DNA of 21,144 nt from a virus. Where the stretch lies: positions 1 to 21,144 of IMG/VR virus record IMGVR_UViG_3300042731_000228; one strand, written 5' to 3'. Position 1 is the first letter of the stretch. Each line of letters begins with the position of its first letter. The notes beneath the pieces are model-generated. The model saw nothing but the letters and a program-made list of their open reading frames with translations. It was not told the origin of the DNA and ran no database searches. Positions 1,034 to 19,736 of the stretch are shown piece after piece. Both the position numbers and the translations under genes were made by a program.

Positions 1034-1043
1034 TAATTTACAA
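1034..1043 (-). promoter_or_regulatory. Stop-associated word TTGTAAATTA, copy 1
   Basis: The minus strand reads TTGTAAATTA starting one base after the stop codon of the 598-residue gene and 15 bases before the portal ATG. Five other junctions carry the same word. Its function is unknown. Confidence 0.6.
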
Positions 1044-1044
1044 G

Positions 1045-2841
1045 TTAAGGCTCAAAATAAAACTCAGGAGAATTGATAGAGCCATTGTCTACATCGTAGT
1101 AGTATGTATTGTTTGTTCCGTATTCTTTAAATCCAAACCAAACAACCATATTGTCAAGAGTTTTAGTTGTATCTTCTTGTGCAAAAGATACTCTTGCATA
1201 AGGGTCAATATTCCCTTGATAGTTGGTTTGATAGTAACGAGTTCCTGTAGAACCTACATTAAAGAATAGAGATTTATTTTCCACCTCTATAACTGTTCCA
1301 TCAGTATAAGTTTCTCTTGTAAATACCTTAACATAACCTGGCGCACCCGAACCCTGCTCATCAAAATAACTCGCTACAGGACTTGCTGTTTCTCCTCCGC
1401 TAAATGTAGATGTTGCAGGGTCAAATACATTTGGTATTCCTGTAAAACCTATGTACAACTCGTATACACCGTATGATGAATTGTAGAAGACCTTGTTGGT
1501 TGGGTCATTCGGTCTACTCAATACAACAGGAGTCTCAGATTCAATTACATAATCGTTTCCGTTCAATGTTATTGTATGCTCTGAACGATGTCTTAGAGTA
1601 AAGACTCTACTAATACTTGCATTAGTTTGGTAGTAACTAATTGAGTTATCAGGTGCTGTCCATAAAGACACATCCTCGCTTATGGTTTGGCCGTCAACTA
1701 CCCAAGAACAAACGACATTTACTACTGAGTGACTAAATGCAGAATCATCTAAAGTCTTAAATGGATAAGGATTTTTGATTTCAGTCATTTGACCAACAGG
1801 AGCCGTGAAAGATTCAGAAACGACATTTTGTGTAAGTGAATCAGAAAAAGTTGAGTAATTAACAAAACTCTTATGTGAGTCAGCAGACAACAATTCCATT
1901 GTACACTGAGTATTCTCATTTACATAAGCGTACAAGTTAGGAGAACCTATCAATGTGTCATTGTACAAATCTATTCTTGCAGTTGTATCCGTTTCAGTAG
2001 ACCTGTAAGCAGTTGCATTTGTTAGGCTGTCAGCCATATACAAGTCAATGCTTGGAGGCATTAATACATTAAAGTTAAATGTGCTGTATGTTGTACCACC
2101 TTGAGAAACTACTACTTCAGTATCCCAAACATCACCAAGATTTAGACCTCTTGTAGATAGGTTTTGTATCGTAGAAGTTCTTGAGTTTGTAGAGGATAAG
2201 GTTCCGTGTGTTTTTACTACTGTAAATGTGTTATTATCAGAATCGGTACAAGTAATATTTAGGCTATAATCTTTGCCATTTACTTGTGGTATATCGTTTA
2301 TTCTAAAAGACACCAAGTCTTGCTCAACACTCACAATATAGTACGGGTCTGATGAGCCTTCAAATGTACCATCATTGAAATTAACACCTATGTCCCCCCA
2401 AGGCAAACTGCCTCCGCCACTAGTATCCGTGCTAGTATCCGTGCTAGTACTTCCACCTTCTTCAGGAGTTATAGAATCGGTATTTTCAACAGCAACACTA
2501 CCTGTCACATCGCCTGAAAGCACTATACTATCAGCATAGATGTCAGTCCCGTGAGTATTGTATTGATAACTTTGAACTTCACACAGGTATGAGGTTGAAC
2601 CACCTGCATTTGTAACGGTCATATAGTACTCACCACCTTCAATGGTATTGGATACTAGGTCTAGATTCAGAACAATAAAGTCAGAACAGGCCGCAAGACC
2701 CAACTCATCCTGAAGTTCAAACAAGGTGAGGACAGTACCCCCTACAACTTTCTCAAAAGTAACATCAAATGAGTTAATAGTGTAACTCAAGTTTCTAATA
2801 AAAGAAATAGAGTTTACTGACCCCGCCTTTAATCTTTTCAT
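1045..2841 (-). CDS. Large modular structural protein, probably tail or fibre associated (598 residues)
   Basis: Not assigned to a named family. Residues 1 to about 115 form a compact N-terminal module. It contains FELQDELGL near residue 41, an EGGEYYMTVTNAGGSTSYLCEV stretch near 68-89 (split here only for naming) and a following YQYNTHGTDIYADS. I have seen similar N-terminal modules in structural proteins of Bacteroidota phages. A low-complexity Ser/Thr/Gly linker at about 121-148 leads into a long beta-rich region of about 450 residues with Ig-like spacing of aromatic and Gly/Asp-Asn turns. There is no signal peptide or membrane segment. The ATG overlaps the stop of the preceding 79-residue gene by one base (TAATG), so translation is probably coupled. 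Its place after the fibre block and before the portal, and its linker-plus-repeat build, suggest an exposed virion protein such as a tail-tip or head fibre. The existence of the gene is certain; its role is a guess. Confidence 0.7.
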   Translation of the reverse strand: MKRLKAGSVNSISFIRNLSYTINSFDVTFEKVVGGTVLTLFELQDELGLAACSDFIVLNLDLVSNTIEGGEYYMTVTNAGGSTSYLCEVQSYQYNTHGTDIYADSIVLSGDVTGSVAVENTDSITPEEGGSTSTDTSTDTSGGGSLPWGDIGVNFNDGTFEGSSDPYYIVSVEQDLVSFRINDIPQVNGKDYSLNITCTDSDNNTFTVVKTHGTLSSTNSRTSTIQNLSTRGLNLGDVWDTEVVVSQGGTTYSTFNFNVLMPPSIDLYMADSLTNATAYRSTETDTTARIDLYNDTLIGSPNLYAYVNENTQCTMELLSADSHKSFVNYSTFSDSLTQNVVSESFTAPVGQMTEIKNPYPFKTLDDSAFSHSVVNVVCSWVVDGQTISEDVSLWTAPDNSISYYQTNASISRVFTLRHRSEHTITLNGNDYVIESETPVVLSRPNDPTNKVFYNSSYGVYELYIGFTGIPNVFDPATSTFSGGETASPVASYFDEQGSGAPGYVKVFTRETYTDGTVIEVENKSLFFNVGSTGTRYYQTNYQGNIDPYARVSFAQEDTTKTLDNMVVWFGFKEYGTNNTYYYDVDNGSINSPEFYFEP

Positions 2842-3080
2842 TATTCTTCTTTAATAACTTCGTACTCGCCTGTACTTAAATTTACATTGATGTCCCCATA
2901 GGACTCTTTAAGTGCTTCACGAGATTCATCTAGTCTCTTGTTTACTGCCTCGTACTGAAGCAATAAATTAGTTTTTTCCAACTCCAAACTACCAATAGCA
3001 GTCTTGATGTCAGTCATAAGTTTAACAATCTCTTGGAGAGATGTTAATTCGCTTTCGTTAATTTTCTTTGTCTTGGCCAT
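2841..3080 (-). CDS. Small coiled-coil protein of unknown function (79 residues)
   Basis: A short, highly charged protein starting MAKTKKINESELTSL. Residues about 10-62 are predicted by eye to be one long alpha helix with heptad-like leucine and isoleucine spacing. A short C-terminal segment (GDINVNLSTGEYEV) looks like a small beta hairpin. Small proteins of this build occur in phage structural regions, but I know no demonstrated function. The ATG at 3080 follows the 66-base AT-rich gap, and the stop overlaps the next ATG (TAATG at 2841). The protein is therefore probably made together with the 598-residue protein and may be its partner or chaperone. That partnership is inference from position only. 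Confidence 0.7.
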   Translation of the reverse strand: MAKTKKINESELTSLQEIVKLMTDIKTAIGSLELEKTNLLLQYEAVNKRLDESREALKESYGDINVNLSTGEYEVIKEE

Positions 3081-3146
3081 ATTATTATAATAATTTTATA
3101 GATTACTAATATAGTATAATATTATTATAATATACTTATGTTGTTA
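3081..3146. other. AT-only-like intergenic gap with palindromic duplicated 12-mer
   Basis: This is the longest stretch without a gene in the window, and it is almost entirely A and T. Bases 3081-3094 are a perfect 14-base palindrome (ATTATTATAATAAT). The 12-mer ATTATTATAATA recurs exactly at 3121-3132, forty bases away. No Bacteroidota-type promoter core (TAnnTTTG) is visible on the minus strand. The gap could be a promoter or operator for the 79-residue, 598-residue and portal genes, or simply AT-rich spacer. Confidence 0.4.
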
Positions 3147-3335
3147 TTAACTTTTGATAACTCGGCTGAAGATTCGGTATATGCCTTCAGGCAGATTATC
3201 AATATGAGCGTAAGCATCTTCCTGAGAAGAAAATGACTCGTGGTCATTTTCCTCTAGGTATAATTCCCAAGTACCATCGTTCATTAAGACAGTACCATCT
3301 TCTATATTTTCTATGTAATAGTTACTTGTTACCAT
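3147..3335 (-). CDS. Small protein of unknown function downstream of the collagen-like fibre (62 residues)
   Basis: A 62-residue acidic protein starting [17 protein letters not shown]. It has a beta-like N-terminal half with DGTVLMNDGTWELYLEEND around residues 13-31. Then comes an FSSQEDAYAHIDNLPEG segment that looks like one helix and a turn, and a final strand IYRIFSRV. No family is assigned with confidence. The ATG overlaps the fibre stop by one base (TAATG at 3335), so it is very likely translationally coupled to the fibre gene. Small genes directly after a fibre can be fibre-assembly chaperones or tip adaptors, which is only a possibility here. Gap-facing stop at 3147 precedes the AT-rich spacer. 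Confidence 0.65.
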   Translation of the reverse strand: MVTSNYYIENIEDGTVLMNDGTWELYLEENDHESFSSQEDAYAHIDNLPEGIYRIFSRVIKS

Positions 3336-5713
3336 TATACAATTCTTGTAATTGTGATTGCTCCGCCATCACCGTTAGTAGATGTTACCCCGTGGTTAAC
3401 AGCACCTGCGTGTAAGAATGTTTCAAAGAATAAAACATCTCCCGCAGCGACTGTAACAGCAAATGTTGACTGAGTAGTGCTTTTATGCCCATATGTATTA
3501 TATCGGAAGTACTGCAAGTTAGTACCACCCTGAATAGTAGAACCATTTAGTTTAGCAGAAGCACCAAATGTGCTTCGGTTAGCATAGTACGACTGCCAAT
3601 TTATATTCCAAGAGATGAGGTATGTACCTGCTTGGTTAAATACAATGTTTGATTCGCCTGAAGGCGAGGTAGATGTAGAGCCGTTGATTTCTTGAGTCGC
3701 TAAAACGATAGGCTGTCTACTTACCTCGTAAACCACACCTGTTTGGAATAGGTATTTATCAGGTCCATACATACTCCCGTTTGCCCCTGCAGGACCCTGT
3801 GGCCCTTGTGGCCCTGTACTCCCGCTCGGCCCCTGCGGCCCCGTGGCCCCAGCACTCCCTGCGGGACCCGCTGGCCCGATTGGACCCGTGTCCCCTGTGT
3901 CCCCTTTGGCCCCTGCGGGCCCCTGTGGACCCTGTGGACCGACACTCCCGTTGCTACCTGCAGGACCCTGCGGACCAATAAAGTCAGGGTAGTTTTCAGG
4001 TGTAAATTGTTCGGGTACAACATAACCTGCATTAGCGTGATTACCCCATCCGTAGGCAGTATTCCAATTTGTAGAGTTACCGCCTGTTGTAGTAATTTCT
4101 CCTGTAACACTTATACCTGTAGATGTAGTAGTTAGTTTTGTTGCGTTATCGTATCCTAATGTAAGACCTCCGTTTTCGGTAGACTTTAAAATCCACTCAC
4201 CGTTTTGGTCATCGTATAAACCACCTTCATTGCCATTAATCATTAATGAGATTATACCCTCATTAGAAGTGTTGGAAACTTGTAGCCCACCCCAAGATGA
4301 AGTAGAACTCTTAATCATTAACAAGTCTGCACGGTCGGTAGACTCAGTTAGTGTAGCACCACTACCAACTGCAAGTGATGTTACAGACAATGCAGAAGGT
4401 ATACTTGTTAAGTATCCTGCACCATTAGTCAATTGATTATTGTTTGTAGGAATATTACCATCTACAGTTGCAATAGCATCAAATACCTCAGTATCTATTC
4501 TTTGGTTTACTGCAGCAGCAGAACCTGCAGCATCGTATGTGTTTGCGGTAACGCTAAATGTCGTTCCGCTTAGTGTCAATCCCGTACCTGCTGAGTATGT
4601 TGTGTTTGTATCAGTAAATACTGCTCCTGAAGGTACAGGTGTTTTTACATTATCAAATGCCCAATTAGATGAGATTGATGTCGTTGTCGCTCCATTAACA
4701 GGAGTATCGTGAATACCTCTCCAAGTATTAGCATCCGAAGTAGTTACGCTAAATGTTGTGTTATCAGAGCGTGTGAAGGTTATTGTGTCGTTTGATACCG
4801 AAGCAGCCTTGATAGGGTTTACCGAAGCATCTAACTTTGTATCAATTGCAGGTAATACTTCCTCGTTAATACGAGCATCAACAACAGCCACGGCTGAACT
4901 TACTTCGGCATCAGTAGCGTATGAGGAAGGAATAGAAGTCAAGTATCTACCATCAAGGTCAACGGAGTTTCCGTTGCTTATAGTAAGAACGCCATTTGTT
5001 CCGTTCCAAGAAAGAGTCTGACTATCAGTTTCAGATGTAAGATATCCTGCATCAGCGTGATTACCCCAACTGTAAGCAGTCTTAAAGTTTTGGATGTTAG
5101 TCTTTGTTAAAGCCTCCCCATCCAATGTGAGTTGGTCACCCCTTAGATATGCAGTTTTTCTTGTAGACCATCCACCTGACCAATTCCCTGTGTGTGAATT
5201 AATCTCAAGACCTTGCTCTGCATTCAGGTAGATATATTCGTTAGTTTGTCCTGTAGCATAAGAGTGAGACTCACCTGCGTTTAAGACAAGTTGCTGTCCA
5301 TTACCCTTGATGTAAGCGTTAATGGTTAAAGCACCTGTTAAAGTTCCACCCGACAAAGGCAGGTAGTTGTGTGAGTGTGAGGGTAAAGATGTTAAGTACC
5401 CTGCATCTGCGTGGTTGCCCCAGGACCAAGCCTCTGCACCACGAGCAGAATCAGTAGCGGTCCCGTAAGTGCCTGACAAGTTGGGTATTCTTGCGGCATT
5501 AATAGTTCCTGAAGTGATTTTACTTGCATCAAGATTTGGAATACGAGAAGCACCAATAGAGCCACTTACAATTTTACCCGCATCAAAGTTGGGCATTCGT
5601 GAAGAACTGATTGTTCCGCTCGTGATTTTTGAAGCATCTAAATTAGGTACATCAGATGCAGCGATATTCATTGAACCTTCTACATCAACTCCATTAAGAA
5701 TCTTAATAGCCAT
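3335..5713 (-). CDS. Tail fibre protein with collagen-like stalk and possible C1q-like C-terminal head (792 residues)
   Basis: Probable host-recognition fibre. Domain order: a short N-terminal attachment segment (1-23); three 18-residue repeats of the form [12 protein letters not shown]..(A/S)RIP at 24-77; then repeats typical of fibre shafts, including two [12 protein letters not shown] copies (first at 98-109), a variant [10 protein letters not shown] before the collagen segment, [14 protein letters not shown], and a [14 protein letters not shown] segment. Residues 580-648 are 23 uninterrupted Gly-X-Y triplets rich in GPQGPAG, a collagen-like trimeric stalk. Residues 649-792 are a beta-rich C-terminal domain with [12 protein letters not shown] and a final [12 protein letters not shown]. 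The size and position recall C1q/TNF-like or BclA-like heads that follow collagen stalks; this fold match is an inference. The ATG follows a 63-base gap holding a terminator. DNA of the Gly-X-Y region is much more GC-rich than its neighbours. Confidence 0.85.
3770..3976 (-). repeat. Collagen-like Gly-X-Y repeat, 23 triplets
   Basis: Within the 792-residue fibre, 69 codons encode 23 perfect Gly-X-Y triplets ([15 protein letters not shown] and similar). The coding DNA has many near-identical nine-base units and is far richer in G and C than flanking DNA. It is a natural substrate for slippage or recombination that would change stalk length. Confidence 0.93.
5483..5644 (-). repeat. Three tandem 18-residue repeats at the fibre N-terminus
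   Basis: Residues 24-41, 42-59 and 60-77 of the 792-residue fibre align without gaps. All have the pattern N-(L/F)-D-A-(S/G)-K-I-(T/V)-S-G-(T/S)-I-x-x-(S/A)-R-(M/I)-P. A partial fourth copy (NIAASDVP) precedes them. Each unit is 54 bases. Confidence 0.9.
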
Positions 5714-5729
5714 AAAACACTTTTTGATT

Positions 5730-5760
5730 AAAAAAGAGGGAGGGAAACCCCTCCCCCTCT
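5730..5760 (-). terminator. Intrinsic terminator after the 391-residue fibre gene
   Basis: On the minus strand an AGAGGG..GAGGG arm pairs with CCCTCCCTCT across a short GTTT loop, with a two-base bulge, and is followed at once by six T. It lies in the gap between the 391-residue and 792-residue fibre genes. The plus strand has no T run after the hairpin, so it acts in the direction of the genes. Confidence 0.85.
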
Positions 5761-5765
5761 ATTAA

Positions 5766-5775
5766 GAATTTACAA
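5766..5775 (-). promoter_or_regulatory. Stop-associated word TTGTAAATTC, copy 2
   Basis: The word begins one base after the stop of the 391-residue fibre gene and is followed closely by the 5730-5760 terminator. The last base differs from the other five copies (C instead of A). Confidence 0.5.
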
Positions 5776-5776
5776 A

Positions 5777-6952
5777 TTATGCAGCCCCAACACCTGCAGC
5801 CAAGTAGTCTACGCCGTTTTCTAAGAACGCAAATACTAATCCGCTACCATCTTGGGTGATGTCAGTAAGTACAACTGAACCTGTGTTCAAATCATAAATC
5901 TGAACATTTACAAAACTATTGATTCCCTGTCCATTGAAGTCAATAGGAGTGTTTGCACCAGCACCTGTAACTTGAATTTGAGCAAATACAGGAATAGTTG
6001 GTTTGTTAGTTAGGTTGTTGTAGTTGCGGTAGTAAGCCGAAGACTGACCATCCAACAAATCTGCATCAAGACCTGAACCTGCACCATCAACTGTTTTAAT
6101 CTTAGCCAATACATCAGCAGCGGTGTAAGCAGAAGAATCCAACTTGTTACCGATTGCAGTAGTGATTGTGGTACTAAAGTTAGCATCATCACCGATTGCA
6201 GCAGCAAGTTCGTTCAATGTATCTAATGCAGCAGGAGCAGCAGCAACAAGGTTACTAATTTCAGTAGCGACATGAGTACGAGTAGCATAGTCGTTAAGTA
6301 CTTCGCTGTTTACTTTGCTGTCAAGTTCATCTTGTAGACCAATAACTTCACCAATTGGGTGTTGGTGAGCAGCAGGAGTAAAGGTAGTTGGAACACCTGT
6401 CAATGAAGAGTATGCCCCATTGAAATTAGAAGTACCTGCACCAATCAATGAGCGTACCTCTGCAGCAGTAATACCTGTAGTTAAAGCAGGTGCGCCTGAA
6501 TTGTTACGAATAGCAGGTTGGAAAGTAGCAGTTGCTCCTGCCTCAATGTTGGTTAACTTGTCATTTCGTTCAGTAGTGAAGTTAATCTCTGTAAGACCAC
6601 CATCACCAATACTATAAGTAGTATCAGTAAATACTGCGTTAGCAGGTACATTTGTCAATACTTGAGAATCATCAACCTTACCATTCAAGGCAGTTTGAAG
6701 ACCGCTTACATTGCTGATTGCGATAGTACCAATACTGATAACGCCTTCGCTTTCAGAAATCGTTGTACCATCAGCAGTTAATCCTACACGAACAAAGCCT
6801 GAGCCATTGTGTACGAATACAGCGTTTGCCGCTGTGTTAAAGAAAATCTGACCTGCAGTACCTGAAGAAGGAGCAGAAGCCAAATTTTGAAGAGAGAAAT
6901 TCTGTACTTCATTTCCCCCTAAATCTAAGTCAACTAGATATTTTAAAGCCAT
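5777..6952 (-). CDS. Tail fibre protein (391 residues)
   Basis: Probable tail fibre or fibre-shaft protein. It starts MALKYLVDLDLGGNEVQNF, a typical short attachment segment, then has shaft-like repeats rich in Gly, Asn, Thr and Ala: SNVSGLQTALNGKVD, LTNVPANAVFTDTTYS, a helical LDTLNELAAAIGDD segment, and ADLLDGQSSAYYRNYNNLTNKP. The last of these is a motif found in many phage tail fibres. The AVFTDT.TYS block also occurs in the 792-residue fibre, so the two genes share a module. The C-terminus from about residue 300 is a compact beta domain ending LENGVDYLAAGVGAA. The start at 6952 is preceded by an A-rich leader. The gene is followed by the TTGTAAATTC word and a strong terminator. No catalytic motif (lyase, peptidase) is visible. 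Confidence 0.83.
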   Translation of the reverse strand: MALKYLVDLDLGGNEVQNFSLQNLASAPSSGTAGQIFFNTAANAVFVHNGSGFVRVGLTADGTTISESEGVISIGTIAISNVSGLQTALNGKVDDSQVLTNVPANAVFTDTTYSIGDGGLTEINFTTERNDKLTNIEAGATATFQPAIRNNSGAPALTTGITAAEVRSLIGAGTSNFNGAYSSLTGVPTTFTPAAHQHPIGEVIGLQDELDSKVNSEVLNDYATRTHVATEISNLVAAAPAALDTLNELAAAIGDDANFSTTITTAIGNKLDSSAYTAADVLAKIKTVDGAGSGLDADLLDGQSSAYYRNYNNLTNKPTIPVFAQIQVTGAGANTPIDFNGQGINSFVNVQIYDLNTGSVVLTDITQDGSGLVFAFLENGVDYLAAGVGAA

Positions 6953-6970
6953 TTTTGTTTTTTGTTTTTA
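6953..6970 (-). promoter_or_regulatory. A-rich translation leader before the 391-residue fibre gene
   Basis: The minus strand carries runs of five or six A separated by single C directly before the ATG at 6952, with no GGAGG-like sequence. Bacteroidota ribosomes depend little on Shine-Dalgarno pairing and favour A-rich, unstructured leaders, so this is read as a translation-initiation region. Confidence 0.45.
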
Positions 6971-7327
6971 TTAATTAAGAAAAGCCTTTCCCTTAAAAGG
7001 GTATTTAAATCGGACAACAAGTACTGCATTGTCCAAGTACTCCACTTCGCCAACAACCTGAGTATTCGCAGAATCAACTACGCTTACTGATGGGTTCTTA
7101 CCAAGAGCGTGTTCTATAACCCATTCAGATGCCGTAACATTCTGGTGGTGTGTGTATGATGTTAGGGATTCCCCATTAACTCTAACATTAGAAGTAGATA
7201 CAGTAATAGGTAGGGCTGTACCATTACCATCGCTAAGTTGTACTTCGCCTGTAACTTCATTGCTGTCAATGGTCTTAATAAGACCTTTGTAGGTATCCTT
7301 CGGTTTATTTCCTGTTAGTGTAGCCAT
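6971..7327 (-). CDS. Small tail or fibre-associated structural protein (118 residues)
   Basis: It starts MATLTGNKPKDTYKGLIKT, an N-terminal segment common in short fibre or tail-tip proteins. A middle part has GEVQLSDGNGTALPI and VRVNGESLTSYTH. The C-terminal module from about residue 66 reads SEWVIEHALGKNPSVSVVDS, GEVEYLD and FKYPFKGKAFLN. The 'H.LGK.PSV.VVDS' module is a recurrent beta domain in phage tail and fibre proteins; that is family recollection, not a search. Its ATG follows the stop of the upstream 49-residue gene with no gap (TAAATG). It sits directly upstream of two fibre genes, so a baseplate-to-fibre adaptor or short fibre role is likely. Confidence 0.75.
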   Translation of the reverse strand: MATLTGNKPKDTYKGLIKTIDSNEVTGEVQLSDGNGTALPITVSTSNVRVNGESLTSYTHHQNVTASEWVIEHALGKNPSVSVVDSANTQVVGEVEYLDNAVLVVRFKYPFKGKAFLN

Positions 7328-7477
7328 TTATATCTCTTCTTCCCAAGTGTCGTTAATCATATCCCATCTCATATCATTTACATTCCAATACCTGTTATCA
7401 AACTCGTAAACACGCCCTGCAATAGGAGCCTGTCTCACGGATGTAGCCTGTATTGTTATGCCTAATGATAATAGCAT
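7328..7477 (-). CDS. Very small protein with a C-terminal W-rich motif (49 residues)
   Basis: Unrecognised. The reading frame can be opened upstream only by a TTG at 7513 inside the previous gene. I chose the ATG at 7477 because it overlaps the previous stop as TAATG, the arrangement used at nine other junctions here. The protein starts MLLSLGITIQATSVRQ and ends with W-x4-M-x-W-x2-I-N-D-x-W (7343-7387), which also ends the 84-residue protein encoded at 7740-7994. The shared ending suggests a common binding partner or a duplicated adaptor. Probable minor virion component. Confidence 0.6.
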   Translation of the reverse strand: MLLSLGITIQATSVRQAPIAGRVYEFDNRYWNVNDMRWDMINDTWEEEI

Positions 7478-7994: not shown

Positions 7995-8509
7995 TATGGT
8001 AATTGTATTACTCCTTCATCCTCAATAGCCAATGAAGCAATCCAACTTTGAGTGTTTAGTTCCACATCTACATATGAAAGTTCACCTCTTGTTGTACCGC
8101 TATTAGCAGTAAAATTCATATCAAGACCATCCATCCATCCGCTAAGAGTTACTGTACCGTTGTTGTGATACAACAAACAAACAATATCTCCTCTTCTAGA
8201 CATATAGTCTATCTTATTCATCTTTCTATCAATGATAGGTAACCTAACTACAATGTTTGTATTGATAACACCTAATCCATTGTTAATGGTTTTAGACTCA
8301 TTAAACGATGTTCTAGAGTCTTTTGGGTTATGCTCAAACACAACTGAGTCTTGCAACTCTAGTTGGGTGATTAATGTCTCATCAACAGGGTCAAGCGTAA
8401 TAGACAAGCCTCTTTGTAATCCTAGAACCACACGCTTAATACCCCCTGCATTATTAGTGTTGCAGTTAATATCAATGTCTTCTAGGAAAATACTACAATT
8501 GAAACTCAT
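7994..8509 (-). CDS. Paralogue of the preceding tube-like structural protein (171 residues)
   Basis: This protein resembles the 180-residue product of the gene immediately before it (8573-9115) along most of its length. Shared points are a GG(I/L)K(R/K)V motif near residue 22, a KD..(T/S).F.E(S/T)KT(I/V) segment near 63-75, and a GT...(S/V)GW..GL...........SGT.R segment near 118-141. The level of identity is low but the order and spacing are kept, which points to an old tandem duplication. Like its paralogue it is beta-rich with no signal peptide. I infer a tail-tube or tail-tip tube-like fold; head decoration is an alternative. It follows a terminator and ends in a TAATG overlap with the 84-residue gene, so it belongs with the small-protein and fibre group. 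Confidence 0.65.
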   Translation of the reverse strand: MSFNCSIFLEDIDINCNTNNAGGIKRVVLGLQRGLSITLDPVDETLITQLELQDSVVFEHNPKDSRTSFNESKTINNGLGVINTNIVVRLPIIDRKMNKIDYMSRRGDIVCLLYHNNGTVTLSGWMDGLDMNFTANSGTTRGELSYVDVELNTQSWIASLAIEDEGVIQLP

Positions 8510-8521
8510 AATCTATTAAAT

Positions 8522-8552
8522 AAAAAGGGGCGGGGCAATACCCCACCCCTTG
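8522..8552 (-). terminator. Intrinsic terminator after the 180-residue tube-like gene
   Basis: On the minus strand AAGGGGTGGGG pairs with CCCCGCCCCTT around a TATTG loop and is followed by a T run. The central mismatch is a G-U wobble only in the minus-strand RNA (C-A on the plus), which confirms the direction. Confidence 0.88.
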
Positions 8553-8555
8553 TAT

Positions 8556-8565
8556 TAATTTACAA
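8556..8565 (-). promoter_or_regulatory. Stop-associated word TTGTAAATTA, copy 3
   Basis: The word begins seven bases after the stop of the 180-residue gene and is followed a few bases later by the 8522-8552 terminator. Confidence 0.55.
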
Positions 8566-8572
8566 GAATTGC

Positions 8573-9115: not shown

Positions 9116-9142
9116 TATTATTCGTTTTTTAAGTGTTAAAAT

Positions 9143-9166
9143 AAAAAGGGGAGGATTTCCTCCCCT
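9143..9166 (-). terminator. Intrinsic terminator after the major capsid gene
   Basis: The minus strand reads AGGGGAGGA, a very short loop, then TCCTCCCCT followed by five T. It lies just after the capsid stop and before the 180-residue gene. Confidence 0.88.
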
Positions 9167-9178
9167 CTCTATCAGTTA

Positions 9179-10066
9179 TTATGCGTGAGCGTAAACTACC
9201 TCTTCGCCTTTCAAGTAAGAGAAACCAAGTTTGAATTGGCCCCAAATCTTATCAGAAGACAACTCAGGCTCGTACTTCATATCAATAGCACGAACATCGT
9301 TGTAGTCATCAGTCAACATCACCAAGTTCTGAGGAGCAGATACGATAAACTCACCTGCAGCCATACTTGGGAAGTGTACAACTTCCATACCGAAGTAAGG
9401 AGGGATGTTACCTTCTACGATACCTTGAGGAGTAGTAGTGTACTTCTCAGCGATAGCGATTTGGTAAACTTGCATAGCCTGTGTTCCTAAGAAGAAAGCA
9501 GGTTTGAAATCACGGTCAGCATCTCCGTAAACAGCAGCCAACATTACATCGCTCATAGCAGAGTAAGCAGCCTCCATTTCATCAAGGATGTTTGCAGAAG
9601 TCAAGCCACTTACAAGAGTGTGGTCAATAACATCAGCATCAGCAGTCATCTCAGCAGTCAATTCAGAAGCAGCCAATTCAAGTGCTTTTTGAGCAGACAA
9701 TTTTGCAAAGTAGTCAAATACCCAATCTTTGAACTCAGCGTCCATAGTTTCAGGGTTGTGTTGACCTTTTTTCAACAACAAGCCACGGTAAGAATCTTCT
9801 AGAGCGTTCTTACAGTTTAAGAAAGACCATTTGTAGTCAGAGACAGTCATTTCTTTTTCGCCAATAGAGGCAGTGCTTTGAGGGTCCCAAGCACAAATAT
9901 CGCTACCGAAAGTAAGGGCAGCATCAAAAATAGGTACATTTACTTTAGCCTTAACACCATCAACCAAGCGGAAGCGGTTAAGTACTGCAGCAGATTTTAC
10001 CATAGAGTCAATGAACAAGTCACGACTGCGGTCACCATAAGGTAGGTTAGAAATAGATACAGACAT
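9179..10066 (-). CDS. Major capsid protein (295 residues)
   Basis: Read as the main shell protein. It begins MSVSISNLPYGDRSRDLFID. The body alternates helical segments (a KDWVFDYFAKLSAQKALELAASEL helix at about 112-137) with beta segments. Near the end NIPPYFGMEVVHFPSMAAGEFIV and KIWGQFKLGFSYLKGEEVVYAHA look like the P-domain and final strands of HK97-fold capsid proteins. There is no long N-terminal delta domain, which fits a separate scaffold in the protease gene just upstream. It is the first gene after the protease, is followed by a strong terminator, and has well-adapted, repetitive codon use, all as expected of the most abundant virion protein. HK97 fold is inference; the capsid role is well supported by context. 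Confidence 0.85.
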   Translation of the reverse strand: MSVSISNLPYGDRSRDLFIDSMVKSAAVLNRFRLVDGVKAKVNVPIFDAALTFGSDICAWDPQSTASIGEKEMTVSDYKWSFLNCKNALEDSYRGLLLKKGQHNPETMDAEFKDWVFDYFAKLSAQKALELAASELTAEMTADADVIDHTLVSGLTSANILDEMEAAYSAMSDVMLAAVYGDADRDFKPAFFLGTQAMQVYQIAIAEKYTTTPQGIVEGNIPPYFGMEVVHFPSMAAGEFIVSAPQNLVMLTDDYNDVRAIDMKYEPELSSDKIWGQFKLGFSYLKGEEVVYAHA

Positions 10067-10109: not shown

Positions 10110-11177
10110 TTATTTACGATTGAAGAACTTATTAATCAATGCAACTTTCTCAGGAGTGATACCTTGGAAGTTGATTGTCTTATCTTCTACCGCTTCTTCA
10201 GTTTCTTCAGCCTTTTGTTCAGCAGCGAATTGCTCCTCAACTTCTTGCTCAGTTACTTCTTCTTCAGTAGCCTCGTAAGTTTCTTCTTCTTTAGTGGCTT
10301 CAACTTCAACAGCCTCTTCTCCTGCAGGAGCGATGCTTTTTTCTTCAGCCATTTCTTCTTCATCTTCGTGTGCGCCCATCTCTTTTTCTTCTTCAGCAGA
10401 AGCCTCTTCAGCCTCTACCTTTTCTTCTTCTTGAGATGTTCCCATACTTTCAATGTGCTTTTGAATCATCTCAATAGCAGACTTCAGACTGTCTACACCA
10501 CCAAGAGTCTCTTCAAAAGAGGTCAATGTTTCTAGAAGGTTTGCGTTTTCTTCTTCTAGAGCAGTAATTTGTGCTTGGAACTTAGCCATAGAAGCCTCAA
10601 AAGTGGCTTCCATTTTACCTAGTTCTTTTGCGAAAGCAAATTCATTCATTTCAAATTTATTTACAGGTTTAATATCCGCTTGAATCTCAATAGAGAAGCC
10701 GTTGACTTCTCCGTTTTTGATAGCATTAAATAATTCGCTAGACTCAATCTTAGCCTTTACGAATACGGTTCCGTTGGGAAGGTTGTAACCATAGTCCTTG
10801 GACTTGTCGTTATCGCTTTCCTTCATCCAAACTTCTAGCATCACCACATCCTGCGTATCATATTCGTGGTGAATACCAAATTCGTTGAACAAACCTTTTT
10901 TAGAGTAGTTATACATAATATCACGGATTGTTTCTTCCGTGAACCTAACATAGTAATATCCATTCTCAGGACTGAAGCGTAGAATCTCTTTATTAGGAAT
11001 CATAATTGGTCCTACTACTTCTTGCTTTTCATCGTTGGCGAACATCTCTACTACTTCAGTTTTGTTGAAGTATATGAAGTTCTCCTCAATCGCAGGTTTG
11101 TCCACGAGAGAAATTTTGTACATACCCTGTTCAAAATCCTCAAGTGTAATATCGTATAATGGTAAATCCTTATTCAT
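10110..11177 (-). CDS. XkdF-like prohead protease fused to an acidic scaffold-like domain (355 residues)
   Basis: Residues 1 to about 170 resemble the XkdF-type putative serine protease family (related to prohead protease S78). Matching points are MYKISLVDKPAIEENFI near 19-35, VGPIMIPNKEILR at 55-67, YYYVRFTEETIRDIMYNY near 74-91, GIHHEY with His103/His104, LEVWMKE, and GEVNGFSIEI with Ser162. The His and Ser are the likely catalytic pair. Residues about 184-245 look like a coiled coil. Residues about 249-333 are an extreme Glu-rich stretch with Ala, and the end FQGITPEKVALINKFFNRK is basic. This is the layout of a self-cleaving protease-scaffold: the enzyme matures the prohead while the coiled and acidic parts organise capsid subunits. 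The ATG overlaps the previous stop (TAATG at 11177), and the capsid gene follows. Confidence 0.83.
   Translation of the reverse strand: MNKDLPLYDITLEDFEQGMYKISLVDKPAIEENFIYFNKTEVVEMFANDEKQEVVGPIMIPNKEILRFSPENGYYYVRFTEETIRDIMYNYSKKGLFNEFGIHHEYDTQDVVMLEVWMKESDNDKSKDYGYNLPNGTVFVKAKIESSELFNAIKNGEVNGFSIEIQADIKPVNKFEMNEFAFAKELGKMEATFEASMAKFQAQITALEEENANLLETLTSFEETLGGVDSLKSAIEMIQKHIESMGTSQEEEKVEAEEASAEEEKEMGAHEDEEEMAEEKSIAPAGEEAVEVEATKEEETYEATEEEVTEQEVEEQFAAEQKAEETEEAVEDKTINFQGITPEKVALINKFFNRK
10179..10430 (-). repeat. Low-complexity Glu-rich coding stretch
   Basis: About 85 codons are dominated by GAA and GAG, giving many TTCTTC words on the plus strand. It encodes the acidic scaffold-like segment of the protease gene. 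The matching Phe/Ser-rich frame on the plus strand is an artefact of this composition. Confidence 0.8.
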
Positions 11178-11947
11178 TACTTTTTACTTCTTTTATGCCA
11201 ACTTGGTAACAAGTCGTTATCTTGTGTGTACTTAGGGTTAGATGGTTTTCCGTTCTTAACCAAGTACATAAATGCGTTTAACCTCGCTAATCCCCATTGT
11301 ACAGCGGATGTGACTTTGGGTGAGTGAGATGTATTGTATGCACCCATACCACGAAGTACAACACGCTTTGCACTTCCAACACCAATCTTTTTGTCAGGGT
11401 ACTTTTCATTGTACTTATTGACTTTGTTGGTGATTTGCTTTATAATCGCAGGAGAAAGTTTGCCACCTTTTCCAACACCTTTCGGATTCTTTTCAGGAGT
11501 GTCGCTTTTAGGTGCTTTGGGAGATTTCTTAATCTCTCCATCCTTGCCTTGCGTTGCGAGTTTATCTTCCACTTTACGGTCACCCCAAGGGTGGTTACCG
11601 CTGTCAACACTTGCCTTAACAGTTCCTCTTCGGATTGACTCAGCCTTCTTAATTGCCCAATTAACACCACTCGTTCCTCCCCAACCGAGCCAAGCGACAT
11701 AGCCTCTATCTTTCCAAGGAGTGTCCTTATACTTCGGGTCAATTTTAGCATTCTTGCGATGGCGATTAAACGCAGCCATACGAGCAATAGTTTCATAACT
11801 CAGTTTTGTTTTAGAGGCTAATTGTTTTGCACGAGTCCAACCCACAGGGGTCATCCCCTTTACTTCTTTTCCGTACTTCTTTTTCCACTCAAGAACTTTC
11901 TTGGCGTTATTAGAAGCAGATTGTGGATAGTCGTTGTAAGTAGCCAT
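11177..11947 (-). CDS. Two-domain phage protein, N-terminal YP..A..NA module plus DUF5824-like C-terminus (256 residues)
   Basis: Function unknown. Domain 1 (about 7-105) has YPQSASNNAKKVLEWKKKYG, TPVGWTRAKQLA, SYETIARMAAFNRHRKN and AWLGWGGTSGVNWAIKK. I recall this module from many phage structural regions, usually beside or fused to head proteases. A basic, Lys/Pro/Gly-rich linker covers about 105-165. Domain 2 (about 165-250) has VVLRGMGAYNTSHSP and VQWGLARLNAFMYLVKNG and resembles the phage domain I know as DUF5824; that name is from memory. The strong positive charge suggests contact with DNA, RNA or the acidic scaffold. It follows the 847-residue gene by nine bases and overlaps the protease start (TAATG), so it is placed with the head-assembly genes. 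Confidence 0.72.
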   Translation of the reverse strand: MATYNDYPQSASNNAKKVLEWKKKYGKEVKGMTPVGWTRAKQLASKTKLSYETIARMAAFNRHRKNAKIDPKYKDTPWKDRGYVAWLGWGGTSGVNWAIKKAESIRRGTVKASVDSGNHPWGDRKVEDKLATQGKDGEIKKSPKAPKSDTPEKNPKGVGKGGKLSPAIIKQITNKVNKYNEKYPDKKIGVGSAKRVVLRGMGAYNTSHSPKVTSAVQWGLARLNAFMYLVKNGKPSNPKYTQDNDLLPSWHKRSKK

Positions 11948-14500: not shown

Positions 14501-15108
14501 TACTTAATCAATACATTAAAGTTAAGTGCGGTTTTAATCTGACCATTAATCGCTACTGCTGACAGTTCAGTAGGAGAAACGCTATACGCTCTATTGTTAC
14601 AACTATCCACTAAAACTTTGTCGCTGTAGTTATTGTACAAAGATTTTAGGTTGCTATTGAATACAAGCCTTTGCTGAGGTACGGATATATTGTAAGACTC
14701 TCTATAGTTGTATGGCTTATAATCCTTTCCGTATGTAGCAACTTGGAAGTTCGGTGACAGGTTGTAACTATTTAACTCAAGAATAGGTGTTGAAGGTAAT
14801 GCAAAGATTTCAAGTTTCACAACATTGGTGTTTGCTTCGGCAATACCCCCGTATACATTAGAGTCGTAGTCGCAAATCAATCGGTACTCCGTACCATCGT
14901 ATGTTTGGTCATTATAAACTCCGTATATAAACTTGTTTACTCCATTGTGCAAAACTGTAACCCTTACAATGTCAAAGTTGTTTGCAGGGAAGTTAGCCGA
15001 TGGCGAGTCATCAATGATTGTAAATGTTTCATCGTTAATGCTCTCAAATCTTAGAGGCTGATTGTGATGAACATATGTATCAATCTTGTATATGCTGTAG
15101 TCACTCAT
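14500..15108 (-). CDS. Possible distal tail protein, directly after the tape measure (202 residues)
   Basis: Not recognised by motif. It starts MSDYSIYKIDTYVHHNQPLR and is mostly beta with many Asn, Tyr and Val: FDIVRVTVLHNGVNKFIYGVY near 65-85, EYRLICDYDSNVYGG near 92-106, a VVKLEIFALPSTPILEL segment, and a C-terminal YSVSPTELSAVAINGQIKTALNFNVLIK. There is no membrane segment. TAATG overlaps link it to both the tape measure and the 847-residue gene, so the three are translated as a unit. By position it is a candidate for the distal tail ring that connects tube and hub, but no sequence signature proves it. Confidence 0.6.
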   Translation of the reverse strand: MSDYSIYKIDTYVHHNQPLRFESINDETFTIIDDSPSANFPANNFDIVRVTVLHNGVNKFIYGVYNDQTYDGTEYRLICDYDSNVYGGIAEANTNVVKLEIFALPSTPILELNSYNLSPNFQVATYGKDYKPYNYRESYNISVPQQRLVFNSNLKSLYNNYSDKVLVDSCNNRAYSVSPTELSAVAINGQIKTALNFNVLIK

Positions 15109-18100
15109 TAGATAGTGGTATTGTTATCTTTAATTCTTCTAGCGTTCTCATCTTTTCTGAGGTCAGTAGAAGTAACAAATGCTCTTACAGGTCTGCTGCT
15201 GTTAATAGCATTAGTTGTAGTTGCCTCGGCAATAGCCTTTAGGTAATTTACACTTTCCTGTGATTGTTGGCTAACATTAGTTACCGAATTGGTAACGCTA
15301 CCACCCTGTGCGTATCTAACAGGAGAAGGTGTTGTGTTAGGCTTGACTGACTGATTAAGTCGCTCTAGCAAGTCACGGTGTAGTGAGGCGGCTCTTTTGT
15401 TCACAATGAACTCTCCACCTTCCATCTCGTATCCACCCTGTCCCTGTACTGAGAATGGTACACCGCCATCCTGATGGCTAGGCCCATAAACCATACCCCC
15501 TTCAGCAAACTTCTTAGGGTAGAACTTGCGTTGGTTGATAGCACTTACTTCTGCAGCGTAAGATGCTGCGGCACTCGCTGCCGTAATAGCAGCCATAATG
15601 TTAAGAGTAGTAGGCTCTGCAATACCTTCCTTAATCAAAGTAGGAATGATAGATGCTACAGCCTCTAGGAACTCAACCTTTGCATCGTTTCTATCTTTCT
15701 TTTGCTCTGCTTCAAACAACTTTTTCTCAATCGCATTTTCTTCAGCAATCTGCTTCTTACGAAGTTCTTGTTGTCTTCTGCGGTACTGAGCCTCATTGAT
15801 AAGGCCGTTTTCAAACTGCTGCTTGGCCAAGTAGTCTTCAGTCTCGTAACGAGCCTTAATCGCTTCCTTTTCTGCCTCTAGCCTGTTCTTAGTGTTCTCA
15901 AATGCCGTGTCATTGAATCCTTCTAGCGCACCAACAACGGTAGATATAGCCTCATCAATACCTTTGTATAAAACTTTGTTCCAATCAACGCCATACTCAG
16001 GCTGAATGTTGTCAATGATTGCTTGGGCAACCATTTTCAAATCAGGGTCATCACCTGCAACGGTCATCAGGTCTTCTTTCATCTGCTCGTAGATAGCAGA
16101 CTCACCACGCTTCATTTCAACGCCTGTTATTTGACCTTTATCATACTGACTTTTTAGTGCTGTAATTTGATTTTTTGCTGCAGCGGTTACGGCTAGGATA
16201 TTAGAAACATTTGTTTCTAGAGCATCGTTTTTGTTATCATATGTCCTGATAAGGTTGTGAAGAGTTTTTTGCTCACGCTCCATAACGGAAATGTTATGCG
16301 CTGCTTGTTTTGTGAGTTCGCCTTTTGAGTTTACATTCTCTCTTTCCTTTTTTATCTTTTCATCAAGCACTTCAATTTCGCTGTAGGCGTACTGAATGAA
16401 CTTAACATTTTCTGCTTGTTTCTTCTTGTTGGCATCAATGTCATTAAATACAGTTTTAGTATATTCCTTGTTTGCCTCGGCTGCAGCATTGAGGGCTTCG
16501 TTACGCTTGTCAATTGCTTTTTTAGCATCTTCAGTAATGTCAATTTGGTCCTTGAAGTCTCTTGCTACTTGCCTTTCAATCCTAGGCTCAGTAACTTTCT
16601 TTCCCTCTTTGACTATTACTTTGATGAAGTTTGAGAATCTTCTTTCAAATCCTTCCAATTGCTTATCTCTTGCTTTCATCTGCAAGACAGCATCTTCATA
16701 CGCCTGAAGTTGAACAGCATCAAGTGTTCCGCTATCAATGATTTTGTTGGTTTCGTCTATAGAGTTTCTGAGTTTTATTCTTTCGTCTATAATCTCATCT
16801 ACCGCTTCAGCAGCCTCTTTCTGAACATTAAGACCCTTCAGTTCTTTTGTGATGAGGGCTTGAAGTCTATCTTCATATTCATCATCAACAAACGAGCGTG
16901 ACTGCTCAATAAGTATGTTTTTTCTAATCTGCTCATACTGCTCTTCATAAGCATCGGTCAAACCCTGTACTGCAAGTGTCTCATCTTGAGTAAGACCTAT
17001 TTTTACGGCTGTCCATTTTGTAGCAGTAACAATAACCCTACTCAAACCTGTCTGAGTTTTCTCAAGTCTATCTAGCCACTTAACGACATTAAATGTTGCT
17101 TCAACTTCTTTTAGAGCGTCCTTTTGATATTGTTCTGCAGTCTTACCACTTTGTTTAGCCAACCTTTCTAGTGCAACTGTCTGAGCATCTACCCCACTTG
17201 CTAACCTCTCCATATCTTTTTGGAGGTCTTCCGTGCTGATTCCCTCAAGAGCCTTGAATGCTTGAATTGTTTTCTTAGCCTCGTAACTAAGCAGCCCTAT
17301 TGCTTGGGTAAATAAATCACTTGAGATTATAGCCTCGCCAATACTAACCTGCATCTTGTTTATTTCAGATTTCAGTATCGCAATCTGACCTGAAACCGAT
17401 GTAGATTGAGTTGCCGCTGCTTTCATAGCACGGCCCATCTCATAGTATTTGTTATTGTTTTCGTCTAACGCATCAATGTTTGCTAGTAGCGTAATCAACT
17501 GAGATGCGTTTCGGACACCTACCAATTCGGCAGCATCAGCGACACTAAGATTTTGCTTTGCTAGTTCTTTTAATTTACCCTCAACATCAACTGTTTCAGC
17601 ACCTAGTTTTGTGAATATGGCACGAAGACCTGTACCAACACGAGATGCCGTAAACCCATTATCCGCTAATATAGCCATTGCACCCGCTGTCTGCTCTAGA
17701 CTAATTCCCAAGTCGTTAGCAATAGGCCCAATGTACTGAACTGCAGTAGAAAAAGAATCTAGCGACAATGCAGAATTGTTGATTGTTGTCACGAGAATAT
17801 CTGCAATCTCATCACTATCTTCTGCTAAAAGGTTGAATTGGTTGATGAGTTTACCTACCTGCTCTGCTGTAGTACCAACATCTGCTCCAAGGGCTTGGGC
17901 GGCAAATGATATTGAACTAGTTGCGGCTACTACTTCTTTAGCAGAAAAACCTAGTTTGGACAGTTCGGTTTGTAGTTTAACTACTTCAATAGCGGTAAAT
18001 CTTGTTTGACCCGCTACCTCAAGTGCGTTTTTTGAAAGAGCATCTAAGTCTCTCCCTGTTACACCCGCAACTGCAGAAAGATTTTTTACGGCATCCTGAA

Positions 18101-18650
18101 ACTGAACAAATGCCTTTATACTGTCTACAACAACAAATTGTATGGCTTTCATTGCCGCTCCTAAGATAGCACCTGCTGTAGCAAAACGAGCAAGTGTTCC
18201 CATCGCACTACCTACTCCTTTTGTAAACTTACCAAAAGCACCTGTAGCACCTTTGGTTCCGCCACTCATTTTTTTGTTAGAGGCAGCAACTTTTTGACCC
18301 GCTTTGGCATTTTTGTTTTTTGCCTTTGTATCCTTCTCTATTGCAGCAGTTAACTTCTTCTCAGCAGCGGTTAACTTGTTAGTACCTGCATTAATTTTAT
18401 CAAGGCGAGTCTTTAGATTTTTGTTTGCTCTTTCAGCATCCTTAGTTGCCTTATAGTAATTGTTAACCTGCTTGGTCAACTTGTCCCCGCTCTTACGCAA
18501 GACTTCCATTTCCTTTCCTAACTCCTCTTGAATCTTCTTTGCGGATTTGCCCTCATTGGACATCTCCTGCATCTTACGAGTTAGTTTACTAATGGATAAT
18601 TCCCAGTCCTCAATTGCCTTCGTGCTAGTTCCCCTAGTTTGCTTCGCCAT
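15108..18650 (-). CDS. Tail tape measure protein (1180 residues)
   Basis: The tape measure fixes tail length and is ejected ahead of DNA. The N-terminal 130 residues are Lys-rich coiled coil (WELSISKLTRKMQEM onward). A Gly/Ala-rich hydrophobic segment lies at about 151-176 (ATAGAILGAAMKAIQFVVV). Residues about 180-400 match the TP901-type phage tail tape-measure domain: FQDAVKNLSAVAGVTGRDLD, QTELSKLGFSAKEVVAAT, VGTTAEQVGKLINQFNLLA, AMAILADNGFTASRVGTGLR. Long coiled coils fill about 430-1020. The C-terminus at about 1048-1100 (FAEGGMVYGPSHQDGGVPFSV, EMEGGEFIVNKRA) is typical of Bacteroidota tape measures. At roughly 1.5 angstroms per residue the tail would be up to about 175 nm, an inference. 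No peptidase or transglycosylase domain was seen. TAATG overlaps occur at both ends. Confidence 0.93.
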   Translation of the reverse strand: MAKQTRGTSTKAIEDWELSISKLTRKMQEMSNEGKSAKKIQEELGKEMEVLRKSGDKLTKQVNNYYKATKDAERANKNLKTRLDKINAGTNKLTAAEKKLTAAIEKDTKAKNKNAKAGQKVAASNKKMSGGTKGATGAFGKFTKGVGSAMGTLARFATAGAILGAAMKAIQFVVVDSIKAFVQFQDAVKNLSAVAGVTGRDLDALSKNALEVAGQTRFTAIEVVKLQTELSKLGFSAKEVVAATSSISFAAQALGADVGTTAEQVGKLINQFNLLAEDSDEIADILVTTINNSALSLDSFSTAVQYIGPIANDLGISLEQTAGAMAILADNGFTASRVGTGLRAIFTKLGAETVDVEGKLKELAKQNLSVADAAELVGVRNASQLITLLANIDALDENNNKYYEMGRAMKAAATQSTSVSGQIAILKSEINKMQVSIGEAIISSDLFTQAIGLLSYEAKKTIQAFKALEGISTEDLQKDMERLASGVDAQTVALERLAKQSGKTAEQYQKDALKEVEATFNVVKWLDRLEKTQTGLSRVIVTATKWTAVKIGLTQDETLAVQGLTDAYEEQYEQIRKNILIEQSRSFVDDEYEDRLQALITKELKGLNVQKEAAEAVDEIIDERIKLRNSIDETNKIIDSGTLDAVQLQAYEDAVLQMKARDKQLEGFERRFSNFIKVIVKEGKKVTEPRIERQVARDFKDQIDITEDAKKAIDKRNEALNAAAEANKEYTKTVFNDIDANKKKQAENVKFIQYAYSEIEVLDEKIKKERENVNSKGELTKQAAHNISVMEREQKTLHNLIRTYDNKNDALETNVSNILAVTAAAKNQITALKSQYDKGQITGVEMKRGESAIYEQMKEDLMTVAGDDPDLKMVAQAIIDNIQPEYGVDWNKVLYKGIDEAISTVVGALEGFNDTAFENTKNRLEAEKEAIKARYETEDYLAKQQFENGLINEAQYRRRQQELRKKQIAEENAIEKKLFEAEQKKDRNDAKVEFLEAVASIIPTLIKEGIAEPTTLNIMAAITAASAAASYAAEVSAINQRKFYPKKFAEGGMVYGPSHQDGGVPFSVQGQGGYEMEGGEFIVNKRAASLHRDLLERLNQSVKPNTTPSPVRYAQGGSVTNSVTNVSQQSQESVNYLKAIAEATTTNAINSSRPVRAFVTSTDLRKDENARRIKDNNTTI

Positions 18651-19276
18651 TATCTAAATATTTTCAATAAACTTGTGTCTATCGCCTCAATTAATGTTTC
18701 TCCGTACAATTCAATCATTCTTGCAGCGGCTTTGTTGACACCTCTTTGCAGGGTGGCATCAAACCCTTTATCTTTATATTCAAATGGATTCAAAAAGTTT
18801 GTTCTTTTCTTAATACCATTTTTACCCATTGATTTAGCAATCCTAAAAGCAATTCTCCTAGCCTCTTGAACATCGCTAGAAATTCCTTTTTTCATTACCC
18901 AAGAATGTATTGGGTCAATCTTTGGATACCATTTTTTCTTTTTACTCTTTTCCCATAACACCGAGTAGTATTGATGGTCTTTACCAAGCCCGTACTCAAT
19001 GTTAGTTATTATCTTAACACTTTCAGGTATGTTGTTTCTATACGAGCCAATAACGACCCGTATGCTGTCTTTTTTGACAAGCCACCTGTCATCGCTTTCA
19101 GGCATTAATGACTTGCTGCTCTTAGGATTGGTCAACCTACCTGTAGCGACCATACCCTTGGATTTAGCAATCTCTACTATCTTAGCAATAATAGCGGATT
19201 TCCTAAACTCCTTGGCTATTGCAGCAACAGCAACCAATCGCATTTGATTCTCTAACTGTTTCTTGCTTCTAGCCAT
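18650..19276 (-). CDS. HK97-gp10-like neck or tail-completion protein (208 residues)
   Basis: Resembles the HK97 gp10 / neck type-1 family, which joins head and tail or caps the tail. Points of similarity are KGMVATGRLTNPKSSKSL near 39-56, a KKDSIRVVIGSYRNNIPES strand pair near 68-86, NIEYGLGKDHQYYSVLWEKSKKK near 92-114, then IHSWVMKKGISSDVQEARRIAFRIAKSMGKNGIKKR near 122-157. This last helical pair with an 'I..W...KG......A..IA..I...GIK' pattern is typical of the family in Bacteroidota phages. The protein is strongly basic. TAATG overlaps join it to the genes on both sides. Its place directly before the tape measure fits a tail-completion role. Confidence 0.75.
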   Translation of the reverse strand: MARSKKQLENQMRLVAVAAIAKEFRKSAIIAKIVEIAKSKGMVATGRLTNPKSSKSLMPESDDRWLVKKDSIRVVIGSYRNNIPESVKIITNIEYGLGKDHQYYSVLWEKSKKKKWYPKIDPIHSWVMKKGISSDVQEARRIAFRIAKSMGKNGIKKRTNFLNPFEYKDKGFDATLQRGVNKAAARMIELYGETLIEAIDTSLLKIFR

Positions 19277-19713
19277 TAAAAGTTAATTGTCCTGTTGTAA
19301 GGCTTTCTTGCTAAAGTAAATGTAAAGTCGCTAGTCGCAGTTGTGATATTGTAATCTCCCATTGACTCATTGCCCAAGTCCACTTCGCCAAACTCAACAT
19401 CCCAATCCTCTTGGATTAGGTGGTCCTGCAACTGCCCAATTACGAAGATGTTTTCATCAACGGAATTGATAGAGGCTTCATCGTTTTCGGCAGGTACTTT
19501 GTCTAGTAAGAATATGCCGAAATCAATGTAGTATGCAGGTGCTGCATCCTCTCTAGAGATGTTTGCTTCTAAAGGCATCATTACCATCGTGCGGTAATTG
19601 AACTCTCTGCCTTCTAGTTCATCTTCAGACTTGACAAGGATTACCTCATTGACCATTTCGTGGCGTTCACCAAAATCCTTGACAGCCTCGTATATGCCTC
19701 TGAGGTTGTTCAT
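19276..19713 (-). CDS. Possible tail terminator or neck protein (145 residues)
   Basis: No firm family. It starts MNNLRGIYEAVKDFGERHEM, an N-terminal helix, then alternates strands and helices: NEVILVKSEDELEGREFNYR, TMVMMPLEANISR, AYYIDFGIFLLDKVP near 60-75, a helical NIFVIGQLQDHLIQE and TSDFTFTLARKPYNRTINF at the C-terminus. The size and alternating alpha-beta pattern match tail terminator proteins, which cap the tube and stop its growth. It lies before the gp10-like and tape-measure genes, where terminators and neck proteins are common. The ATG at 19713 is preceded by a 17-base gap with the TTGTAAATTA word. The stop overlaps the next ATG (TAATG at 19276). Confidence 0.6.
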   Translation of the reverse strand: MNNLRGIYEAVKDFGERHEMVNEVILVKSEDELEGREFNYRTMVMMPLEANISREDAAPAYYIDFGIFLLDKVPAENDEASINSVDENIFVIGQLQDHLIQEDWDVEFGEVDLGNESMGDYNITTATSDFTFTLARKPYNRTINF

Positions 19714-19726
19714 ATGTACTTTTTTA

Positions 19727-19736
19727 TAATTTACAA
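19727..19736 (-). promoter_or_regulatory. Stop-containing word TTGTAAATTA, copy 6
   Basis: The TAA inside the word is the stop codon of the 237-residue gene (final codons TTG TAA). The next ATG lies 23 bases from the first base of the word. Confidence 0.6.

Follow-up and report, generated by a model that had tools for sequence, protein, structure and literature searches.

The window analyzed here, a stretch of 21,144 nucleotides that is the entire IMG/VR virus record IMGVR_UViG_3300042731_000228, is the structural module of a tailed phage and belongs to an uncultured marine siphovirus family. Its called genes, which encode the terminase, tape measure, probable major capsid protein (MCP), tail fibres and portal, all lie on the minus strand, and the ten-base word TTGTAAATTA recurs at the junctions between them. 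Our analysis strongly indicates that this word is the core element of a late promoter, which is probably read by a phage sigma factor resembling gp55 of phage T4. Four observations lead to this reading: an A at a fixed distance downstream, the lack of a -35 element, the confinement of the word to late junctions, and the co-occurrence of a gene for a gp55-like sigma factor. What the sequence shows directly is the word with its strand and position, the A at a constant distance, the conservation and the predicted sigma fold.

The word, its fixed A and the adjoining hairpins

An earlier reading of the window, made without database searches (the sequence-only reading), had placed the word at six gene ends. 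Our search confirmed these positions as five exact copies and one copy ending in C (TTGTAAATTC), all on the minus (coding) strand and occupying, as had been reported, six of the nine gapped junctions (P2 and P4 to P8 in Table 1). The six copies overlapped the upstream stop codon or followed it by 0-7 nt. The distances from the end of the word to the next ATG were 5, 52, 46, 31, 5 and 13 nt, which correct the range of 15 to more than 60 nt given previously. No exact copy was detected in coding DNA or on the plus strand of the window. The claim that the word is absent from coding DNA thus holds for the exact form; however, two copies with one mismatch were found within genes. One of them (TTGTTAATTA, 1856-1865) probably arose by chance. 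The other (GTGTAAATTA, P3) lies within the tape-measure gene, where the relatives keep the same codons, and is probably functional as judged from these sequences: the codons GTA and AAT/GAT were kept in 23 of 23 loci, compared with a synonymous use of 42% and 50-62%.

When the pooled gaps were simulated 20,000 times with a Markov model, no run placed the exact word in more than a single gap, compared with five in the window. When any 10-mer was allowed, no word was common to more than three gaps in 2,000 simulations, and chance is therefore excluded as the source of the five gaps that share TTGTAAATTA. The count against a random expectation that had been proposed was thus decisive for the exact word in the gaps but weak for one-mismatch copies over the whole window (8 observed vs 4.5 expected), so that the signal rests in the exact word and its location.

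A scan with the capsid protein provided 80 loci from relatives, a second set of 61 loci was obtained through the terminase, and 18 loci with distant terminases served as an outgroup. The word was present in 230 copies on the late strand and 2 on the other strand in the first set and in a ratio of 92:3 in the second, and no copy of TTGTAAATTA was found in the 18 outgroup loci. Because the relatives share ancestry, these strand counts are not independent, and the force of the argument comes from recurrence within contigs: in each of ten large contigs, the word recurs four to seven times at non-homologous junctions. The simulations and the relatives bear out the earlier view of the word as a real and recurrent element with the look of a functional one; equal frequency inside genes and a lack of conservation in relatives, named in advance as results that would speak against it, were both tested and neither occurred.

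In the relatives of 35-39 kb, the structural genes share one strand, opposite to that of the replication and early genes. A weight-matrix scan of the ten large, near-complete contigs located sites at the tail gene, inside the tape-measure gene, and at the phrog_2859-like gene, the capsid gene, two hairpin junctions and the portal gene, with a weaker TTGTA[CGT]ATTA ahead of the first late gene in four contigs. On the opposite strand, weaker copies (ATGTAAATTA, score 8-12) were found at the lysis block, the products of which we read from their sequences as holin-like and M15-peptidase-like. The copies were almost wholly confined to late junctions and the early arm had nearly none; the late-gene (virion and lysis) direction that characterizes T4-type promoters was seen by position only.

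The sequence logo consisted of the 10-mer, a short A-rich flank upstream, AT-rich bases downstream and a strong A at index 15, counting the first T of the word as 0; upstream of the word, nothing that would correspond to a -35 element was seen beyond the A-rich flank. This A was present in all seven window copies (P2 to P8) and, at nonredundant sites of the relatives, in 23/23 MCP, 42/43 hairpin and 16/16 tail-gene ('p146') sites. At the portal gene (10/13 loci) and the phrog_2859-like gene (46/50 loci), it was the A of the ATG, and the mRNAs of these genes are therefore predicted to be leaderless. The spacing to the A was tighter than that to the stop codon, and the stop anchoring emphasized by the sequence-only reading is therefore better understood as a by-product of compact gaps. 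The simplest reading of these sequences is a promoter with its start at the index-15 A, so that these two genes would have leaderless mRNAs. In a flavobacterium, such mRNAs make up a minority of 5.5% (PMC9723704).

We infer the transcription start, the pairing of sigma factor and motif, and the timing as follows. A small phage sigma factor encoded in the early arm and structurally similar to T4 gp55 would direct the host RNA polymerase to the word late in infection. The word would occupy about -15 to -6 without a -35 partner, and RNA would start at the A five bases on (TTGTAAATTA-N5-A+1), which at the portal and phrog_2859-like genes would be that of the ATG. Six or more copies would switch on one strand's genes for packaging, tail, capsid, fibres and portal, while the weaker copies would serve the lysis genes of the opposite strand. 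The start would fall at the foot of a terminator hairpin at two of the sites, and a short junction would thus end the upstream transcript and start the next.

These two sites are P6 and P7, each followed directly by a terminator-like hairpin and T run (Table 1). The spacing between word and hairpin was constant in the relatives, and compensatory changes in 6 of the 11 pairs of the P6 hairpin across 14 relatives indicate that this hairpin is maintained. To judge from the sequence, each hairpin probably terminates the transcript arriving from upstream and then forms the 5' end of the following one. The sequence-only reading had taken the neighboring terminators as an argument against a simple promoter; two copies do precede hairpins, but the fixed A in the relatives, the lack of a -35 element, the late junctions and the sigma candidate point to a promoter. 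A GC hairpin with a T run was present at only two of the six junction copies, and the word thus does not have the form of an intrinsic terminator. Another strong terminator-like hairpin (-23.2 kcal/mol) was observed right after the capsid gene (9116-9178, minus strand), at the junction 9179/9115, which has no copy of the word; word and terminator are therefore separable.

A candidate sigma factor and its neighbor

The early arm of the relatives encodes a conserved, unannotated protein of approximately 134 amino acids (L087:6636-7040, minus strand), which was found in 92 relatives including L087. No credible match to this protein was found in Pfam, PHROG or NCBIfam, and a sequence search of the PDB returned only designed armadillo repeats, which we took as spurious. 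Its AlphaFold model had a pLDDT of 79.9, and the best Foldseek match in the PDB was T4 gp55 in the promoter open complex (7d7c_F; probability 1.00, 2.2 A). VIA-align to T4 gp55 gave a Z of 12.5 over 97 residues at 2.2 A, with the next row at 9.7 and the top rows all sigma region 2; chance Z values of up to 13 occur for helical bundles with this tool, but the leading rows here represent one functional family. The best match in the viral structure library was an uncharacterised protein of Tenacibaculum phage pT24 (E 3e-4), and several further best viral matches carry the names of late-transcription or sigma-like factors. On the basis of this model, the protein is probably a gp55-like late sigma factor that reads the word.

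The start of the candidate gene is overlapped by a gene for a helix-turn-helix protein of 70-94 amino acids (L087:7012-7296, minus strand, and relatives). Foldseek and VIA-align returned TetR and sigma-A domains for this protein at a Z of 7 or less, which is below the meaningful level of the tool. Its best superpositions on sigma A reached a Z of about 6 and, in our judgement of the models, fall on region 3; the protein may be a coactivator or a second sigma domain. A further scheme, which we regard as rather unlikely, is a split minimal sigma factor: the gp55-like sigma-2 protein would read TAAATTA, and the helix-turn-helix protein would supply the missing domain, for example by reading TTG or holding the polymerase, while leaderless late mRNAs and fused terminator-promoters would allow a single junction of 30-60 nt to serve as the end of one transcript and the start of another.

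L087 also carries the motif on its early strand (7421-7430, minus strand), within the 68-aa gene that immediately precedes the sigma candidate. We do not lean on this copy, because it codes for a conserved CKL peptide and the relative G004 lacks it; it could reflect positive autoregulation of the sigma operon or coincidence.

Several points weigh against the late-promoter reading. The window lacks the early arm and the sigma candidate was seen in relatives only, so that we infer the window's own sigma gene. The Foldseek E-value of the gp55 match was 0.21, and hhalign against seven gp55 sequences was not significant (probability 0.8%, E 0.074, from a low-diversity profile). A promoter whose start coincides with the foot of a terminator hairpin poses a difficulty, as the RNA that it initiates might be terminated immediately. 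Upstream of the sigma gene, the copy on the opposite strand falls within conserved coding sequence and is possibly coincidental. Finally, an endonuclease that cuts 5 nt past the word would also leave 5' ends at the A.

Alternative readings and known systems

It is improbable, in our view, that the promoter is read by an unmodified or alternative host sigma factor in place of a phage protein, although the proposed pairing of phage sigma factor and word comes from co-occurrence and fold. The word fits neither the sigma-70 box nor the flavobacterial TAnnTTTG box (PMC9723704), and it marks late genes, with almost no copies in the early arm. Flavobacterial sigma-A promoters would match the likely host type, but their TAnnTTTG at -7 with an upstream TTG was absent at the sites. 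This consensus was not enriched in these phage genomes, and a sigma-70 promoter scan of the window gave no excess over shuffles. Shine-Dalgarno-like 4-mers were depleted before the start codons of 10 relatives (25/360 vs 51/360 in a control stretch), and A was enriched at -11 to -14 of these codons, as in Bacteroidota; this start-codon context suggests Bacteroidota as the host phylum. The depletion and the Tenacibaculum phage protein as the top viral structural match are indirect hints that make a flavobacterial host likely.

We consider it very improbable that the word is an RNA processing site, at which a phage or host endonuclease would recognise UUGUAAAUUA in a long late transcript and cleave about 5 nt beyond it; the separate mRNAs so released would include leaderless ones as well as others protected by a hairpin at the 5' end. 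The position of the word just past stop codons, on the same strand as the genes and with hairpins directly downstream at two sites, would agree with processing, and the fixed A could equally mark a point of cleavage or a start. However, the weaker copies before the opposite-strand lysis genes and the copy inside coding sequence argue against it; a gp55-like sigma factor is encoded, whereas no phage nuclease was identified, and an AT-rich element without a -35 partner, appropriately spaced from the A, has the form of a phage late promoter.

There is scarcely any likelihood that the word belongs to a terminator, or to an antitermination-type site at which the elongating polymerase is modified. 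This would account for the two window copies directly before a hairpin and T run at conserved spacing, but a hairpin is missing at the other four and throughout the MCP, portal, phrog_2859 and tail classes, the terminator after the MCP gene stands without the word, and the spacing is fixed to the A in every class. A ribosome-binding or reinitiation signal can practically be dismissed: the word lies 5 nt before the ATG at two genes and Shine-Dalgarno sequences are depleted, yet the distance to the ATG ranges from 5 to 52 nt, most genes have no copy, and a hairpin separates two copies from the start codon. The interpretation given by the sequence-only reading, which named RNA processing, a termination or antitermination signal, translation reinitiation and protein binding as candidate functions, is supported only in part, and a late promoter is favored.

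The late-promoter octamer of T4 is TATAAATA. The late promoters of T4 resemble the promoter proposed here in having one AT-rich box of the -10 type, placed about one turn before the start, an AT-rich melting region and no -35 element, in serving late genes on both strands, and in using a very small sigma factor made of the sigma-2 domain (PMC2988020); T4 gp55 is also the best structural match of the candidate. In contrast, the word here is TTGTAAATTA, in which TGTAAATT matches the octamer at six of eight positions with a 1-bp shift, and the octamer lies at about -13 to -6, compared with about -15 to -6 predicted for the word. Because the sites depart from the T4 consensus, we did not file the word as a T4-type late promoter. 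The genome is siphovirus-like and 38 kb rather than 169 kb, the candidate sigma factor showed no significant sequence similarity to gp55, and leaderless starts and promoter-terminator overlap are predicted here. Partners corresponding to T4 gp33 and the sliding clamp gp45 were not identified, the helix-turn-helix neighbor having given only generic matches and no search having been aimed at the clamp.

Phages phiEco32 and 7-11 have a two-arm layout and a 9-bp sigma motif, TAATGTATA (PMC4331800). As is proposed for the family described here, a short intergenic word is read by a phage sigma factor, and the strand that carries the structural genes is opposite to that of the functional genes, which include the sigma gene; the downstream portion of the functional cluster likewise contains phage promoters (PMC4331800). 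The word found here differs from the TAATGTATA consensus, and the phage family is a different one. Their sigma factors are described as distantly related to sigma A (PMC4331800), as opposed to the gp55-like fold predicted here.

The sequence-only reading knew of no described element of this form. This remains true of the exact word, for which a literature search returned no relevant description, but late promoters that consist of a -10 element only and are read by a phage sigma factor are a known kind of element. An uncultured, common marine phage family gains a transcription programme readable from sequence, with late promoters, base-precise predicted starts and a candidate sigma factor. These results suggest that late sigma factors of the T4 gp55 type extend beyond the large T4-like phages and also drive small siphoviruses with a word of their own. 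The sigma factor and its 15-bp promoter could form an orthogonal expression pair, probably for Bacteroidota, for which such tools are few.

Features of the window and its relatives

The predicted promoters, hairpins and genes of the window are listed in Table 1. At least 184 relatives of the MCP were found in IMG/VR, and no named-phage relative was found by DNA or with the MCP, terminase large subunit (TerL) or sigma-candidate proteins. The tape-measure protein matched a generic domain only, and a search of 84,980 genomes with the MCP for the host gave no match.

Table 1. Predicted promoters, hairpins and genes of the window
Feature	Position	Strand	Remarks
Late promoter copy P2 (TTGTAAATTA)	19727-19736	-	before gene 19276-19713; predicted +1 A 19721, 8-nt leader
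Probable internal promoter P3 (GTGTAAATTA)	15244-15253	-	3' part of tape-measure gene; predicted +1 A 15238
Late promoter copy P4	11953-11962	-	overlaps upstream stop; predicted +1 is A of ATG, gene 11177-11947 (leaderless)
Late promoter copy P5	10098-10107	-	before MCP-like gene 9179-10066; predicted +1 A 10092
Late promoter copy P6	8556-8565	-	predicted +1 A 8550, foot of terminator hairpin
Late promoter copy P7 (TTGTAAATTC)	5766-5775	-	before tail-fibre gene 3335-5713; predicted +1 A 5760
Late promoter copy P8	1034-1043	-	predicted +1 is A of ATG, portal gene 3-1028 (leaderless)
Terminator-like hairpin and T run directly after P6	8525-8551	-	-23.4 kcal/mol, z -3.9
Terminator-like hairpin and T run directly after P7	5733-5760	-	-21.2 kcal/mol, z -3.1
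Terminase large subunit gene, cut by window end	20441-21142	-	phrog_2, E 3e-14
145-aa gene downstream of P2	19276-19713	-	class 'p146' of relatives, tail gene
Tape-measure gene	15108-18650	-	phrog_1533, E 2e-46
phrog_2859-like gene downstream of P4	11177-11947	-	
Probable MCP gene	9179-10066	-	phrog_1623 virion structural protein, E 2e-4; relatives in IMG/VR
Tail-fibre gene after P7	3335-5713	-	collagen-like Gly-X-Y stretch
Portal protein gene, cut by window end	3-1028	-	phrog_11226, E 9.6e-17

The palindrome TATTATAATA is repeated in the divergent region between the two arms of the relatives (e.g., G003 8186-8280 and G004 10937-11045), where it is accompanied by the inverted repeat ACCTTTACT-ATGG-AAGTAAAGGT. 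The same palindrome was also observed before the window gene 2841-3080 (window 3080-3147). This region of palindromes and inverted repeats is possibly an origin, an operator or another class of promoter.

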